A stretch of 64,000 nt of DNA from Microbacterium neungamense (GTDB taxonomy: Bacteria; Actinomycetota; Actinomycetes; Actinomycetales; Microbacteriaceae): the NCBI RefSeq assembly GCF_024971095.1, contig NZ_CP069717.1, positions 1,984,001 through 2,048,000 of the forward strand, written 5' to 3'. Position 1 is the stretch's first letter. Every line of letters begins with the position of its first letter. Under the pieces are notes generated by a model. The model was given only the letters and a program-made list of their open reading frames with translations, searched no databases and was not told where the DNA came from. A program made the translations under genes and the position numbers. Below are positions 27,183 to 48,498 of this stretch, one piece after another.

Positions 27183-28064
27183 TCAGCGCGGGGAGAGCAG
27201 GTAGGCGTTCAGCGACGCCGTGAGGTCGGGGTCGGTGGGCAGCGGTGCGCCGTCGACGGCCGTGATCGGCGCGGCGAGACGGATGCTGGAGACCAGCCAC
27301 GCGGCATCCGCTTTCGCCAGGTCGGATGCCGTGAGCGTGGCGTACTCGGCCTGGAAGCCCTGCTTCTCGAGCCATTCGTACACGCTCAGCTGGGTCGTGC
27401 CGTGCAGGATGCCGCCGGACGGCGCCGGGGTGAGGAACCGGTCGCCGGTGCGGATGATGAGCGACGCCGTGGGCGCCTCGAGCACGTAGCCGTCGCTGGT
27501 GACGAACACGGCGTCGTCGGCGCCGCGGCGGCGGGCCTCGCGCAGCGCCGCCATGTTCACCGCGTAGGACAGGGTCTTCGCGCCGAGCAGCAGCCAGGGC
27601 GCGCGCTCGGCGGCGCCGAGGTCGTAGCCGCGGTCGAGGGTGACCACCCGGACGCCGTCCCGCCGCACCGCGCTGAAGTCGGGCGCGGGTGCGGCCGTCG
27701 CCCAGGCGGTGGGGGCCGGGCCGTGCTCCACGCCGCGGCTGAGGATGAGCTTGATCACGGCCTCGCCCGGCGGGCAGGCGGATGCCGCGCGCTGCACGGC
27801 CTGACGCCACTGCTCCAGGTTCGGGGCCGGCAGGTCGCACAGCTTCGCGGAGTGCGCGAGGCGCTGCACGTGGGGCTCGACCTCCTGCGCGTGCCGGTCG
27901 ATCACGCCGATCGACTCGAACACACCGTCGCCCCGCTGGGTGCTGAGCTCGCCGACGCTGAGCGCCGGCGCGGACGGATCCACCTCGGTGAAGGTGTCGG
28001 AGAAGTCGGCGCGGTCGTCCGCGGCGTCGGCGGGGGTGATCATGAGGGCGAACCGGGCTGCCAT
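27183..28064 (-). CDS. pabC: Aminodeoxychorismate lyase / class IV aminotransferase
   Basis: 293-aa fold-type IV PLP enzyme. The Schiff-base lysine lies in LLGAKTLSYAVNM, the phosphate-binding region in GGILHGTTQ, and the substrate segment in RGDGVFES. PabC-type lyases release 4-aminobenzoate for folate. D-amino-acid or branched-chain aminotransferases share the fold, so the exact substrate is uncertain. A -10-like TAAGCT 7 nt before the ATG suggests a leaderless message. Confidence 0.82.
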   Translation of the reverse strand: MAARFALMITPADAADDRADFSDTFTEVDPSAPALSVGELSTQRGDGVFESIGVIDRHAQEVEPHVQRLAHSAKLCDLPAPNLEQWRQAVQRAASACPPGEAVIKLILSRGVEHGPAPTAWATAAPAPDFSAVRRDGVRVVTLDRGYDLGAAERAPWLLLGAKTLSYAVNMAALREARRRGADDAVFVTSDGYVLEAPTASLIIRTGDRFLTPAPSGGILHGTTQLSVYEWLEKQGFQAEYATLTASDLAKADAAWLVSSIRLAAPITAVDGAPLPTDPDLTASLNAYLLSPR

Positions 28065-28110: not shown

Positions 28111-28205
28111 TACACTTGATCGGCCGGGCCGCATAACCCCGGGCTCCAACTTCTGCCGCTGCGAGCGGCCTTCCGCCGAGAGGCGTTCTTGCGGCCCGGC
28201 CCTTT
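28111..28205 (+). ncRNA. Candidate structured RNA with own promoter
   Basis: A -10-like TACACT (28111-28116) precedes GGCCGGGCCGC (28122-28132), which pairs perfectly over 11 bp with GCGGCCCGGCC (28191-28201). Inside lie two hairpins: GCCGCT/AGCGGC with a GCG loop (28155-28169) and CGCC/GGCG with a GAGA tetraloop (28174-28185). CTTTC follows. The shape is a closed three-way junction of about 84 nt. No coding frame or tRNA fits. It does not carry the SRP RNA core or the C-rich loops of 6C RNA. Identity unknown. Confidence 0.5.
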
Positions 28206-28326
28206 CATGTCCGGGCGGGTCTGCGCCGGGCGTGGGCCGGGGGCATCCCGCCGTCGCGTCCGTCGTCGCTTCCGCCGCCGCATCCGTCCGTGCATCCGCC
28301 CCCACCGCATCCGCCGCCCCATCCCC

Positions 28327-28815
28327 GCCGGGAGAATCCCGCACCTCCCGCGGCCGTCCGCCATGCGGAAAGCTCCTCGCGACAGCGCACTCCTCCGCCG
28401 CCGGGAGAATCCCGCACCTCCCACGCCCGTCCCCCATGCGGAAAGCTCCTCGCGACGGCGCACTCCTCCACTGCCGGGAGAATCCCGCACGCCCGAGGGC
28501 CCTCGCGGATGCAAGAACCTCCCGACGGCGCTGTCCCGACCCCGCCGGGAGAAACCCGCACCTCCCGAGGGCCCTCGGATGCAAGAACCTCCCAGCGCCG
28601 GCGCTCCGATCCCGCCGGGAGAAACCCGCACCTCCCGGGACCGACTCCCGTGCCGAAAGCTCCCGACGACGCCGCGCCCCTTCACTGCCGGGAGAAACCC
28701 GCACCTCGCGGCTCCGTTTCCCATGCGGAAAGCTCCCGACGACCGGGGCACCCTTCAACGCCGGGAGAATCCCGCACCCCCGAGGGGCCTCCTGGATGCG
28801 AGAAGCTCCCGGCGA
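28327..28815. repeat. Tandem array 1: seven units of a 70-73 bp structured repeat
   Basis: Units begin with GCCGGGAGAA at 28327, 28400, 28473, 28544, 28614, 28687 and 28760 (steps 73, 73, 71, 70, 73, 73). Each contains GGGAGAA(T/A)CCCGCAC, a variable middle, then a GATGC(G/A)-AAG-CTCCC-like block. Middles differ in sequence but stay self-complementary, for example CGAGGGCCCTCG, CCCCGAGGGG, and CCGCA with TGCGG. CTCCCG at the end of a unit can pair with CGGGAG of the next. Unit lengths are not multiples of three, so this is not coding. It fills most of the gap 28206-28851; 28206-28326 holds only GC-rich CATCCG-type simple sequence. Confidence 0.9.
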
Positions 28816-28851
28816 CCGCGAAGGCGGACCGGCCGGGCGGAGGCAGGCCCG

Positions 28852-29517
28852 TCAGGTCAGGGCGCCACGGCGCCAGGCGGAGGCGGAGGCGGTGAGGTCG
28901 TCGGCGTACGTGCTCAGCCGCAGGGCGCGGCGCGTGAGGTCGCTGGCGCGCCCGGGCTCGGTGGCCTCGTAGTCGTCTGCGGTGTGCGTGGCCCCGGATG
29001 CCTGCACCCGGCAGTACGCCGCGGCGCGATCCAGGGCGACCGCGAAGTCGCCGCGGAAGACGCCGCGCAGGATCGTGTCCACCAGGGCGACGAGCTCGCC
29101 GGGGCCGGCGGGTGCAGGAGCGCCGGCGATCACGGCATCCGCCGAACGAAGCTCCACGCGCCCGCGCTCGTACAGCATCGCCGTGGTCGTGGCATCCGAG
29201 CGGATCGCGATCTGCAGCAGATAGAGCCGCCACAGTGCGCCCGGAAGCGACCGCGCAGGTGCGTGCGACCACAGCTCGGCAATCTCATCGATGCCGTGCT
29301 CCGACGCGAAGGCGATCAGCCGTTCCGCAGTCTCCCCCGTCTCGTCCCGACGCGTGCGCTCCAGCAGCGCCGCCGCCGTCGCGTGCGCGACGCGCGCCTG
29401 CTCGGCCGGGTCCGCGGCTCCGACGATGTTGTCGAAGGATTCCGGCGGCCGGCGAACGGGGCGATGGAACTGCTCTGGCACCCGATCCAGGGTACGCCGG
29501 TCGGCCGCGAAGCTCAT
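28852..29517 (-). CDS. Conserved-looking hypothetical protein, helical
   Basis: 221 aa from ATG 29517. Mostly helical and soluble, with Ala/Arg-rich segments (ARVAHATAAALLERTRR, LWRLYLLQIAIRSDA, GELVALVDTILRGVF). No signal, membrane segment or catalytic motif is visible. I do not recognise the family. It lies between repeat array 1 and a tRNA-Lys-like gene on the same strand. Codon use matches neighbours, supporting a real gene. Confidence 0.6.
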   Translation of the reverse strand: MSFAADRRTLDRVPEQFHRPVRRPPESFDNIVGAADPAEQARVAHATAAALLERTRRDETGETAERLIAFASEHGIDEIAELWSHAPARSLPGALWRLYLLQIAIRSDATTTAMLYERGRVELRSADAVIAGAPAPAGPGELVALVDTILRGVFRGDFAVALDRAAAYCRVQASGATHTADDYEATEPGRASDLTRRALRLSTYADDLTASASAWRRGALT

Positions 29518-29568: not shown

Positions 29569-30201
29569 ATGACCGACGGAGAGGTGCCCCCGGGGAATTC
29601 CGACATCCCGACCCACCGGTTAAAAGCCGGTTGCTCTGCCTCTGAGCTACGGGGGCAGACGCCTGCACAGAAGAGGTGCGGCACCTGCCAGAAGTTTAGA
29701 CCACTCACAGATTTCAACCGGAAGTCCTCCCGCCCGGACGGGCTGCAAGAGGTCTGTCGCGAATGCAACCGCGAGTCGTCTCGTGCGTACTACCGACGCA
29801 ATCGCGAGCATCACATCTCTGTCATCCGGGCTCGCACGGTTGCCCAGAGGGAAAGGAGCATCGCCTTTATCGCCGAGTACTTGAGCCAGCACCCTTGCGT
29901 GGATTGCGGAATTGCCGATGTTCGTGTGCTCGACTTCGACCACCGCCCAGGTACGGCGAAGCGTGACGGCGTCATGCAGCTGGTTCGCAACGGCTTCAGC
30001 ATCCCGATCCTCACCGCCGAGATCGCCAAGTGCGATGTCCGGTGTCGCAACTGCCATGCGATCGTCACATATGAACGCATGGGGGACAACTGGCGATCGT
30101 CCGCGGCCGCAGCGGGCGCTCCTGCCGAAGACACCAAGGAACCGAACCCATCGCGTCCTCTCCCAGCCGCGCCGCGCACCGTCGATCACCGGCCTCGATA
30201 A
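29569..30201 (+). CDS. HNH endonuclease-like zinc protein, 5' end antisense to a tRNA
   Basis: 210 aa as drawn. The core starts near residue 35: zinc-finger pairs CGTCQKFRPLTDF and CRECNRES, then an HNH fold with HPCVDCG, VLDFDHRPG and CRNCHAIVTY. The only in-frame starts (ATG 29569, GTG 29584) lie before or in the antisense of the tRNA-Lys-like gene, so the first 30 residues are antisense-tRNA translation. As I recall, related small HNH proteins sit beside tRNA genes in many actinobacteria. Codon use is less GC-biased than neighbours, suggesting a mobile origin. Confidence 0.65.
   Translation: MTDGEVPPGNSDIPTHRLKAGCSASELRGQTPAQKRCGTCQKFRPLTDFNRKSSRPDGLQEVCRECNRESSRAYYRRNREHHISVIRARTVAQRERSIAFIAEYLSQHPCVDCGIADVRVLDFDHRPGTAKRDGVMQLVRNGFSIPILTAEIAKCDVRCRNCHAIVTYERMGDNWRSSAAAAGAPAEDTKEPNPSRPLPAAPRTVDHRPR
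29585..29656 (-). tRNA. tRNA-Lys(UUU)-like gene with deviant T-arm
   Basis: 72-nt cloverleaf: acceptor GCCCCCG/CGGGGGC, D-arm GCTC/GAGC, anticodon arm ACCGG-CTTTTAA-CCGGT (anticodon TTT), discriminator A, no encoded CCA. The T-arm is unusual: GGGAT-GTCGGAA-TTCCC. The universal G53, T54, A58 and C61 are replaced by T, G, G and T. Either a divergent functional tRNA or a decaying one. Confidence 0.7.
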
Positions 30202-43979: not shown

Positions 43980-44900
43980 TCATCCCGGCAGCGGCGTCGA
44001 ACTCAGCACGCTGAGCATCAGCGGTGCCACGCCGAGCAGGAGGAACGCCGGCAGCGTGCACGCGCCCAGCGGCAGCAGCAGCTTCGCTCCGAGACGCGCG
44101 GCGCGCAGACGTCCCTGGACCCGGGCATCCTGCCGTTGCTGCGCGGCGGATGCCCGGAGCAGCTCGACGGCGGGAACGCCGGCGGCGCGGGAGAGCTCGA
44201 GCACGGCATCCGTGGCATGACGCTCGTCGCGCAGCTGCGCCGCGCTCGTCTCCACCAGCCGCACCGCCCGGGCGATGGCCGCCCCGCCGGACAGGGCGAC
44301 GGCGACGAGTTCGGCGTGCATGCCCGGCGTGCCCGGCTCCGGCTGCGCGCGGCGCACCAGCCGGCGGGTCCACCACCGCGCCAGGAGCACCAGGAGCAGG
44401 CCGGCGGCCACGCAGGCGATCCCGAACGGGTTCGTGGTGAGCACCGTGACGGTGTCGAAGCCGAGCGCGTACCCGAGCAGCAGGCCCGCCACCGGCAGCC
44501 AGAGCAGCAGCCGGGCGGTCCCGGCGGGTTCGGCGAGGGCGATCCTGACGTCATCGGCGGCGGCCGCGGCGTCCTGCAGCGACTCGGCGAGCGCGCGGAG
44601 GACCTCCGCGAGCGGGGCGCCCACCGTGGTGGCCACGTCCCACGCCGCCGCCACATCGACCCAGGTGCCGCCTTCGGCCTCGATCGCCGAGACGAGGTCG
44701 AGGCCGTCCGCGCAGCGCGCCACGACGCGTTCGGCGGAGGCGTTCCCGGAGTCGGCGAGATGCCGCCAGGCCGTCATCGGCCGCGCTCCGGCCTGCAGCA
44801 GCACCGCGAGCGTGCGCACCGCGACCGCTGCGTCCCCGGCGTCGTTCTCGTGTCCCTCGCGACGGCGCGGAAGGCGGATCCGGCGAAGCGGGCTCAGCAC
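43980..44900 (-). CDS. TadB/TadC-type inner-membrane platform protein
   Basis: 306 aa from GTG 44900, overlapping tadA by 7 nt. Two T2SSF-like halves are visible: AVLLQAGARPMTAWRHLADSG and AVALSGGAAIARAVRLVETSA, with membrane pairs at about 145-185 and 270-300. M. tuberculosis has two separate genes here (Rv3657c and Rv3658c), so this may be a fused or condensed form. Confidence 0.8.
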   Translation of the reverse strand: MLSPLRRIRLPRRREGHENDAGDAAVAVRTLAVLLQAGARPMTAWRHLADSGNASAERVVARCADGLDLVSAIEAEGGTWVDVAAAWDVATTVGAPLAEVLRALAESLQDAAAAADDVRIALAEPAGTARLLLWLPVAGLLLGYALGFDTVTVLTTNPFGIACVAAGLLLVLLARWWTRRLVRRAQPEPGTPGMHAELVAVALSGGAAIARAVRLVETSAAQLRDERHATDAVLELSRAAGVPAVELLRASAAQQRQDARVQGRLRAARLGAKLLLPLGACTLPAFLLLGVAPLMLSVLSSTPLPG

Positions 44901-45895
44901 GGCGACATCTCCTCGATCCCCAGGCGGTCGCCGTGCAGCACGAACCTCCCGGCGCGCCGGATGCGGCGGGTGCCGTCCGGATCCCGGCCGAGATGCAGCA
45001 CGACGCTGAACGCGCTGACCACCTGCCGTGCGAGCGCCGTCGCGTCCATGCCGGCGAGCGCCCCGAGGGCTTCCATACGGGCCGGCACATCCGCGAGGCC
45101 ACTCGCGTGCAGGGTGCCGGCGCCGCCGTCGTGCCCGGTGTTCAGCGCGGTCAGCAGCTCGCGCACCTCCTCGCCGCGGCACTCGCCGACCACGAGGCGA
45201 TCGGGCCGCATCCGCAGCGACTCGCGCACGAGCATGGCGAGCGTGATCCGTCCCGCGCCCTCGAGGTTGGCCTGACGCGCCTCGAGGGAGACGTGGTGCG
45301 GATGCCGCGGCCGCAGCTCCGCCACGTCCTCGATGGTGACGATGCGCTCGGTCGGCGGCACTTCGGACAGCAGGGCGGTCAGCAGGGTGGTCTTGCCGCT
45401 GCCGGTGCCGCCGGTGATGAGGACGTTCGCGCGCTCCGCGACGAGCCGCCCCAGCCACTCGCGCTCCCCCGGCGCGAACGTGCCGTATCCAGCGAGCGCG
45501 TCCAGATCGGCCGCGAGCACGCGGGGGATGCGGATGGACAGCGCGGTGCCCGAGGTGGAGACCGGGGCGAGCACCGCGTGCACCCGGATGCCGGAGTCCA
45601 GGCGCACGTCGACGCACGGCGACTGATCGTCGAGATGACGGCCGCCGGCCGCCACGAGCGCCACGGCCAGGTCGCGCACCTCCCGTTCGGATGCCCGCCA
45701 GCCCTCCTCACGCTCCGCGCCCCGTCCGCGGTCGACGAAGAGTCCGCCCGCGCCGTTGACGAAGAGGTCGGTGACCCGGTCATCGGCGCAGAACTCGGCG
45801 AGCGCGCCGAAGGCGGGATCAAGCGGCATCCGTCCCGCGGACGGACCGGACCCCGCGTGTGCGGTGCGGGGGCGGAGGACGAAGGGTTCGGCCAT
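44894..45895 (-). CDS. tadA: TadA/CpaF-type secretion ATPase
   Basis: 333 aa hexameric ATPase powering pilus assembly. Walker A GGTGSGKTTLL, Asp box IVTIEDVAEL, His box and Walker B-like RPDRLVVGECRGEEV; the N-terminal domain has VTDLFVNGAGGLFVDRG. It heads the five-gene Tad operon. No TadZ, prepilin peptidase or secretin is in the window. Confidence 0.9.
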   Translation of the reverse strand: MAEPFVLRPRTAHAGSGPSAGRMPLDPAFGALAEFCADDRVTDLFVNGAGGLFVDRGRGAEREEGWRASEREVRDLAVALVAAGGRHLDDQSPCVDVRLDSGIRVHAVLAPVSTSGTALSIRIPRVLAADLDALAGYGTFAPGEREWLGRLVAERANVLITGGTGSGKTTLLTALLSEVPPTERIVTIEDVAELRPRHPHHVSLEARQANLEGAGRITLAMLVRESLRMRPDRLVVGECRGEEVRELLTALNTGHDGGAGTLHASGLADVPARMEALGALAGMDATALARQVVSAFSVVLHLGRDPDGTRRIRRAGRFVLHGDRLGIEEMSPC

Positions 45896-46030: not shown

Positions 46031-46240
46031 GCCGCCGGGAGGAGAACGCACCGCACACGCGACTCCGCGATGCCAGAACCTCCCGACGGCACGGGCATCC
46101 GCCACCGCCAGGAGAAAACCGCACGGCACACGCCGCCCCGCGATGCGGAAAGCTCCCGGCGGCGCGGCATCCGCCACCGCCAGGAGAAGAACGCACCGCA
46201 CACGCCGCCCCGCGATGCGGAAAGCTCCCGGCGGGCCGGG
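46031..46240. repeat. Tandem array 2: three units of the same 70-72 bp repeat family
   Basis: Units start GCCGCCGGGAGG (46031), GCCACCGCCAGGAG (46101) and again at 46173. Each carries GGAGAA..CCGCAC, a middle ending CGCGATGC, and GGAAAGCTCCCGGCGG (CAGAACCTCCC in the first). CTCC-GGCGG of one unit pairs with CCGCC-GGAG of the next across a C/A mismatch. Block order and period match array 1. It fills the tadA-acs gap from 45896 to 46260 except for an AT-poor lead. Confidence 0.85.

Positions 46241-46530: not shown

Positions 46531-48498
<1,968 letters not shown>

Follow-up and report, generated by a model that had tools for sequence, protein, structure and literature searches.

The DNA analysed here (the window, 64,000 nucleotides) comprises positions 1,984,001 to 2,048,000 of the single 2,546,128-bp contig of Microbacterium neungamense. 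It contains two arrays of a palindromic repeat that is associated with a predicted nuclease gene elsewhere on the chromosome. The larger array had been described in the initial annotation as a non-coding seven-unit tandem repeat with conserved flanking blocks. The array was confirmed, its unit starts (28327, 28400, 28473, 28544, 28614, 28687 and 28760) being exact and its flanking blocks as described, and Tandem Repeats Finder independently reported positions 28325 to 28782 with a period of 73, 6.4 copies and a score of 386. It is intergenic, with a class IV aminotransferase gene (27183 to 28064, -) on one side and an open reading frame (28852 to 29517, -) on the other. The smaller array, of the same family, lies between two divergent genes (44894 to 45829, -, and 46531 to 48498, +). 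The units are listed with their covariance model scores.

28327..28819, +, seven-unit array of ~50-bp palindromic sites (GGGAG dialect)
28327..28399, +, unit 1, 71.5 bits (reverse strand 29.5)
28400..28472, +, unit 2, 71.9 bits (reverse strand 29.7)
28473..28543, +, unit 3, 67.0 bits (reverse strand 32.9)
28544..28613, +, unit 4, one base shorter between the halves, 59.7 bits (reverse strand 24.5)
28614..28686, +, unit 5, 64.0 bits (reverse strand 18.7)
28687..28759, +, unit 6, 68.1 bits (reverse strand 18.7)
28760..28819, +, unit 7, 75.9 bits (reverse strand 39.4)
46034..46238, +, second array, units at 46034, 46107 and 46179, 63.0, 69.3 and 69.7 bits

The repeat unit and its sites in the genome

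The unit is a palindrome of ~50 bp built from a pair of long half-sites, GGGAG-N6-GCAYC. When 25 units were aligned, they gave the near-invariant frame GCC-GGGAG-AA-N3-CGCAY, ~18 variable bases and RTGC-N6-CTCCC-GGCG. The unit is self-complementary, as had been noted, in its outer (GGGAG/CTCCC) and inner (GCA/TGC) arms, and the degenerate bases between the arms are mostly non-complementary. Self-complementarity of the middle, which had also been claimed, was not unusual (shuffle P 0.04 to 1.00, with one of the ten units below 0.05). The 3' half varies (GGAAAGCTCC, AAGAACCTCC, elsewhere GTTTTCCTCC), and the "at least two unit types" of the initial annotation look like this variation. The pairing of unit ends with the next start (CTCCC/GGGAG) involves the outer arms, which also pair inside each unit.

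Relatives keep the unit architecture with a different outer arm (TGCGGGGTCA..CGCACC or TCGATGGGAGG..); these versions are called dialects. The compensating change reported earlier holds between dialects and not among the units of this genome. In a set of 25 dialect palindromes, for which palindromic form was part of the selection, 12 of 13 arm pairs changed on both sides; double-sided cells numbered 83, compared with 29.0 after shuffling (0 of 500). Among the 25 M. neungamense units there were two such cells, compared with 4.2 expected in shuffles, and the covariance model found matches in 9 of 366 genomes of the genus, this one included. For this genome, the data speak for a conserved dyad and not for a covarying hairpin.

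Each of the ten units folded only marginally better than shuffles (P 0.03 to 0.12), all ten in the same direction; jointly they folded consistently better, as any palindrome would. This, together with the intergenic position of the units, is what speaks for a structural RNA or terminator array in which the units would be transcribed hairpins. Such an array is very improbable. Covariation within the dialect was lacking, and an Rfam search of the array gave no credible match (a single mir-731 match scored 24.5 bits, and the gathering score is 70), so that neither line of evidence placed the units in a structured RNA family and the folded RNA first proposed was not borne out. Moreover, the clusters of units occur in convergent, tandem and divergent gene gaps alike, the sites are near-symmetric, with similar scores for the two strands at several loci, and the repeats are coupled to a nuclease gene. 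Terminators were rejected, as the arrays lie in all gene-gap types and also form sevenfold tandems. The rigid ~50-bp geometry, together with the presence of the same palindromes on both sides of a gene for a predicted DNA-binding nuclease, is in keeping with a dyad-symmetric protein site in double-stranded DNA. During spread, the sites may still pass through a single-stranded hairpin stage.

The unit recurs well beyond the two arrays. A plain DNA search with the seven-unit array found 17 further places in the same genome (E <= 6.4e-4, best 1.1e-21), a similarity beyond chance. The covariance model, trained on 25 units with those of the window among them, gave 81 matches, which resolved into 46 sites in 19 clusters when joined at 1000 bp (18 clusters at 1200 bp, 17 at 3000 bp). 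None of the 19 clusters overlapped a gene predicted with a simple, purpose-written codon-usage gene finder, in agreement with the non-coding nature claimed for the array. Centre-to-centre spacing within clusters was 73 bp in 16 of 27 cases, 72 bp in three and 82 to 84 bp in five, with 70, 71 and 76 bp once each. The preferred spacing persists where neighbouring units are inverted or spacers are unrelated. Helical phasing of the units, at 7 or 8 turns, is only suggestive: without the 72- to 74-bp class R was 0.32 (n = 13), and spacings of 67 to 68 bp do not fit. Near the origin of this genome, the same 195-residue transposase-like frame with an identical start was seen twice (L055:6151-6735, -, and L056:1863-2447, -).

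The candidate partner gene and its dialects

The candidate partner gene lies at 2,140,888 to 2,141,817 (+), ~93 kb beyond the end of the window. It is intact, encodes 309 amino acids and is bracketed by two of the palindrome clusters of this genome; its orthologues in the relatives G104, G105 and G176 also adjoin dialect repeats. The protein is predicted to be an AbiEi-type module fused to a Vsr/I-Bth0305I-type (EDxHD) nuclease. Its fold was assigned by AlphaFold prediction and structure comparison, which found both an AbiEi-like two-part antitoxin fold and a Vsr-like catalytic fold in the predicted structure; a sequence profile of the protein found nothing below E 0.5 in the PDB. The C-terminal domain matched PF18741 (E 3.6e-9, just under the cut-off) and PF04480 (E 0.0015, under the cut-off), and residues D239, E250, E252, D254, H256 and D266 were invariant in 32 of 32 subfamily proteins.

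The subfamily (at least 230 bits) comprises 72 genes, counted by hand with up to seven best candidates scored per genome, in 61 of the 366 genus genomes. Other DUF559-type proteins scored at most 150 bits, and four partial matches (157 to 205 bits) lie in between. For 33 of the 72 genes the flanks were fetched; all 33 reading frames were intact with a common conserved start codon, and 32 encode 306 to 312 amino acids. The gene is seated at several unrelated loci.

Palindromes are present in the flanks of subfamily genes; their arms are specific to the gene and often agree between its two sides. The left and right 500-bp flanks shared sequence (score at least 15) at 19 of 28 subfamily loci and at 1 of 29 other DUF559 loci; this cut was chosen after the scores had been seen, and simple sequence contributes to some of the matches. 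Loci with short flanks (two of 30 in the subfamily, one of 30 among the controls) were excluded. The upstream palindrome ended 104 to 127 bp before the ATG in 15 of 33 genes, and the downstream one began 1 to 13 bp after the stop codon in 7 of 33. Where a dialect palindrome was present, the best one spanned exactly 50 bp at 25 of 28 loci, with spans of 48 to 52 bp allowed, ties set to 50 and a dialect list hand-picked partly for palindromes. On this hand-picked list, outer-arm distance correlated with protein distance (r = 0.52, 29 genes, 0 of 5000 permutations). A generic palindrome count was a poor discriminator, and flank-to-flank similarity was the better test: palindromes matching at least 15 of 18 on either side were found at 22 of 30 subfamily, 15 of 30 other DUF559 and 157 of 600 random loci, and at least 17 of 18 at 13 of 30, 5 of 30 and 14 of 600, respectively.

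The association was also seen with the half-site TGCGGGATCRAWAACG, read beside the gene and searched with one mismatch, a search free of palindrome-selection bias. It occurred in 6 to 36 copies in all ten chosen carriers of this dialect and in none of ten genomes without the subfamily gene; the reversed pattern had zero occurrences in those carriers and non-carriers. In five genomes of this dialect, all 30 convergent pairs within 60 bp were exactly 40 bp apart. Among same-strand neighbours within 100 bp, 73 bp was the commonest distance (6 of 17; others 67 to 68, 72, 74, 80 to 84 and 92 bp). The geometry and the preferred spacing are thus maintained in a dialect that differs from the window's own.

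A model of the GGGGTC form was run on 20 genomes and gave 118 matches in G104, 70 in G105, 51 in G176, 37 in G106, 109 in G201, 53 in G314 and 14 in G205, eight weak ones in M. neungamense and none in the other 12. The GGGGTC dialect was also observed as single half-sites, 28- to 29-bp repeats beside full palindromes (L069, L106, G104), with a nested half/palindrome/half arrangement at 3,443,300 to 3,443,420 of G104. A search of 84,980 species, a collection from which the M. neungamense genome is possibly absent, found the exact pattern of the window's dialect in eight stretches. One was in Microbacterium sp. AK031, and the seven in unrelated organisms were read as chance.

The results show a protein-dialect association of fixed geometry, with the sites dispersed in origin-proximal intergenic DNA. 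The partner protein probably binds the sites. AbiEi binds paired 23-bp inverted repeats (PMC7319586), and two protein molecules may likewise sit on each ~50-bp palindrome. The full explanation, in which the array consists of DNA operator sites of one chromosomal AbiEi-Vsr/EDxHD nuclease fusion and the sites spread by the action of the nuclease as set out below, has about an even chance of being correct.

Dispersed extragenic repeats could instead be REP/REPIN elements moved by a RAYT-type Y1 transposase. The layout resembles that of REPINs (Bertels and Rainey 2011, PMC3116915), with inverted pairs, an extragenic and clustered position and an enzyme gene beside the repeats; the 46 sites in 19 clusters are inverted pairs, extragenic, dispersed and clustered. 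No Y1_Tnp (PF01797) match was found in eight of eight genomes, however, with controls matching in 5 of 14, and a different protein carries the association with the repeats, which makes this origin extremely unlikely.

The sites could also serve titration or self-marking. In that case the protein would be a defence nuclease or an antitoxin-like repressor, and the operator copies of the host would tether it to the chromosome or adjust its level. AbiEi-type proteins autoregulate via long inverted repeats (PMC7319586), and the upstream palindromes described above would suit this. Weak PADLOC matches to mREase_II were obtained for two of four proteins (E 1.3e-4 and 2.9e-3), and a small MT0933-type antitoxin-like protein (PF14013, E 4.8e-6) is encoded next to the M. 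neungamense gene. On the other hand, Pfam detected no AbiEii (DUF1814) toxin among ten neighbouring proteins at six loci, the other neighbours being judged by eye, and none of four subfamily proteins had an NCBIfam match. Autoregulation would not require dozens of sites, many of them at the ends of convergent genes. Titration is improbable.

The leaders of the AbiEi-Vsr genes also carry TTGTCCAC (at most one mismatch) in 21 of 33 cases, usually at -60/61 or -70/71 before the ATG (e.g., L181, L188 and L051); shuffling predicts 0.65 cases, and 45 of 3000 random windows have the motif. It resembles the consensus of the actinobacterial DnaA box, and replication-linked control of the gene is possible.

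Chromosomal layout and possible spread

The origin of the M. neungamense chromosome lies near coordinate 0, since dnaA is at base 1 and parS-like sites are at 2,541,227 to 2,542,610. Of the 19 clusters, 18 were within 0.55 Mb of the origin and one was at 1.566 Mb. In nine genomes, with dnaA taken as the origin, 127 of 147 clusters were in the origin-proximal half and 7 in the distal 40%; for this count the lengths of five genomes were rounded, G152 and G212 were two contigs each, and the count is raw with respect to any origin bias of intergenic DNA or conserved genes themselves. In the first half of the M. neungamense chromosome 14 of 17 sites scored better on the minus strand, and in the second half 28 of 29 did so on the plus strand, so that units mostly point toward the origin; at several sites both strands score nearly alike. 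Across four genomes, 48 of 66 clusters with a clear sign pointed toward the origin, a result carried by M. neungamense (14:1).

Both window arrays are missing from the orthologous gaps in G104, the gap for the seven-unit array measuring ~172 bp. Cluster positions of M. neungamense differ almost entirely from those of G104, G105 and G176, with one common locus besides that of the gene. Within these three, 20 of 23 G104 clusters had a counterpart in G105 or G176, in stretches chosen around sites and thus favouring counterparts; two were outside the stretches fetched, and one (3,443,363) was missing from both, where the gap is shorter. Unit numbers differed between counterpart clusters. In the relatives, 65 of 67 clusters checked overlapped no predicted gene; the G105 comparison covered 26 of 29 clusters, three without a fetched stretch being left out. 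G105 also lacks ~12 kb that lies between two repeat clusters in G104 (L101 and L102 vs L122), with one fused cluster left, as if the arrays had recombined. DNA searches returned no match in phages, one 49-bp match in plasmids (Sphingomonas) and one single-site match in viral contigs, and protein searches returned no match. A phage or plasmid origin was rejected.

The bracketing of the gene, its patchy presence, the turnover of dialects and the changed positions between dialects favour a selfish element. The nuclease would nick or cut at the sites, and its action, with repair or replication at the site, could seed further copies in a REPIN-like manner. If seeding took place on single-stranded or extra-copy DNA behind replication forks, the polarity and origin bias would follow. 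Whether the nuclease drives such selfish spread is about evenly balanced. Somewhat more tentative is the complete picture of a self-propagating network, in which an AbiEi-guided homing-type nuclease seeds its own operators at origin-proximal intergenic points, oriented with the forks and in a co-changing dialect, REPIN-like but arisen independently of Y1 transposases, and in which the spacing of the arrays suits cooperative binding.

Several observations weigh against the operator-and-spread explanation as a whole. No clean insertion junction could be read at the G104 site missing from G105 and G176, nor were the insertion boundaries of the two window arrays readable against the G104 gaps. Most cluster positions are conserved among G104, G105 and G176, and arms were 86% identical, loops 72% and flanks 68% in 14 pairwise comparisons, which are biased in that a match to the model was required of both sites. 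This pattern is more in keeping with maintained sites than with restless copies. G205 has its 14 site matches and no subfamily gene, and G106 has only a gene fragment. The residues that read the dialect could not be located, since no protein window accounted for the arm distances beyond overall relatedness (best partial r 0.29, 21 of 300 permutations). Nine of 28 loci had no shared flank sequence at a score of at least 15, and none exceeded the 95th percentile of cross-locus flank scores, because related loci share flanks. Origin bias was not significant alone in G152 (6 of 9) and G212 (6 of 8), nor was polarity in G104 (13:5), G105 (12:8) and G176 (9:4).

The strongest alternative is that the sites benefit the host, a nucleoid-associated or regulatory protein marking the origin-proximal half of the chromosome and the nuclease domain being secondary. 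Domain-marking sites such as those of Noc or SlmA have a comparable layout. The origin-proximal distribution, the positions and arms kept among G104, G105 and G176, and the recurrence of the 73-bp spacing in different dialects and species are all in its favour. This explanation is nevertheless rather unlikely, as the gene is patchy (61 of 366 genomes), dialects differ between species, M. neungamense and G104 share only one cluster locus besides that of the gene, and the bracketed gene at several unrelated loci looks like a mobile unit.

Two further elements lie near the seven-unit array. A ~77-nt element at 28118 to 28205 of the window (+), with a 12-bp perfect stem (GGCCGGGCCGCA/TGCGGCCCGGCC), was almost unchanged in G104 while its surroundings had diverged. 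Its folding z-score was -3.0, it had no Rfam match at E <= 1, and it is a candidate conserved non-coding RNA or attenuator that does not belong to the array. At 29585 to 29656 (-), Rfam detected a tRNA (51.3 bits) that ARAGORN did not report.

Comparison with known systems

The C-terminal domain of the partner protein resembles that of the DUF559/MTES_1575 "Vsr REase" proteins (PF04480 and PF18741; PMC3710099, and VsrA of Caulobacter, PMC12907096). No link between these proteins and dispersed palindromes was found in the literature searched, and no description of this repeat-and-nuclease partnership under the topics DUF559, REPIN/RAYT, AbiEi-homing endonuclease and Microbacterium palindromic repeats. 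The combination of a species-specific repeat family and a nuclease points to a previously undescribed partnership in soil bacteria. It offers a testable partner and target for the large orphan group of actinobacterial proteins annotated as DUF559 or endonuclease domain-containing. It also provides upwards of a dozen naturally occurring pairs of a protein and its DNA dialect, all sharing one geometry, in which the joint change of specificity in a protein and its genomic sites can be followed.

Compared with I-Bth0305I (PMC3943268) and with Vsr, the gene is outside an intron, the N-terminal part of its product is AbiEi-like, and target-like palindromes occur in many copies both beside the gene and away from it. 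With the AbiE type IV toxin-antitoxin system (AbiEi, Rv2827c), the half-site geometry appears from the sequence to agree, given the ~23-bp inverted repeats reported there (PMC7319586). The differences are the lack of an AbiEii gene among the neighbours inspected, the added C-terminal nuclease and the dozens of sites across the genome.

In organization, the system is similar to REPIN/RAYT systems. There, too, short inverted repeat pairs (PMC3116915) are extragenic, clustered and tied to one chromosomal enzyme gene, and the repeat type tracks the enzyme lineage. The enzyme here is an AbiEi-Vsr fusion and not a Y1 HUH transposase, and the rigid ~50-bp palindrome, strong origin bias and preferred 73-bp spacing are further differences. 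On either reading, the origin bias allows a direct test of whether replication and the spread of repeats are linked. If the nuclease does not spread the sites, they would form an origin-domain marking system with a fast-changing code; if it does, the way of life of REPINs and RAYTs would have a second solution with an unrelated basis.
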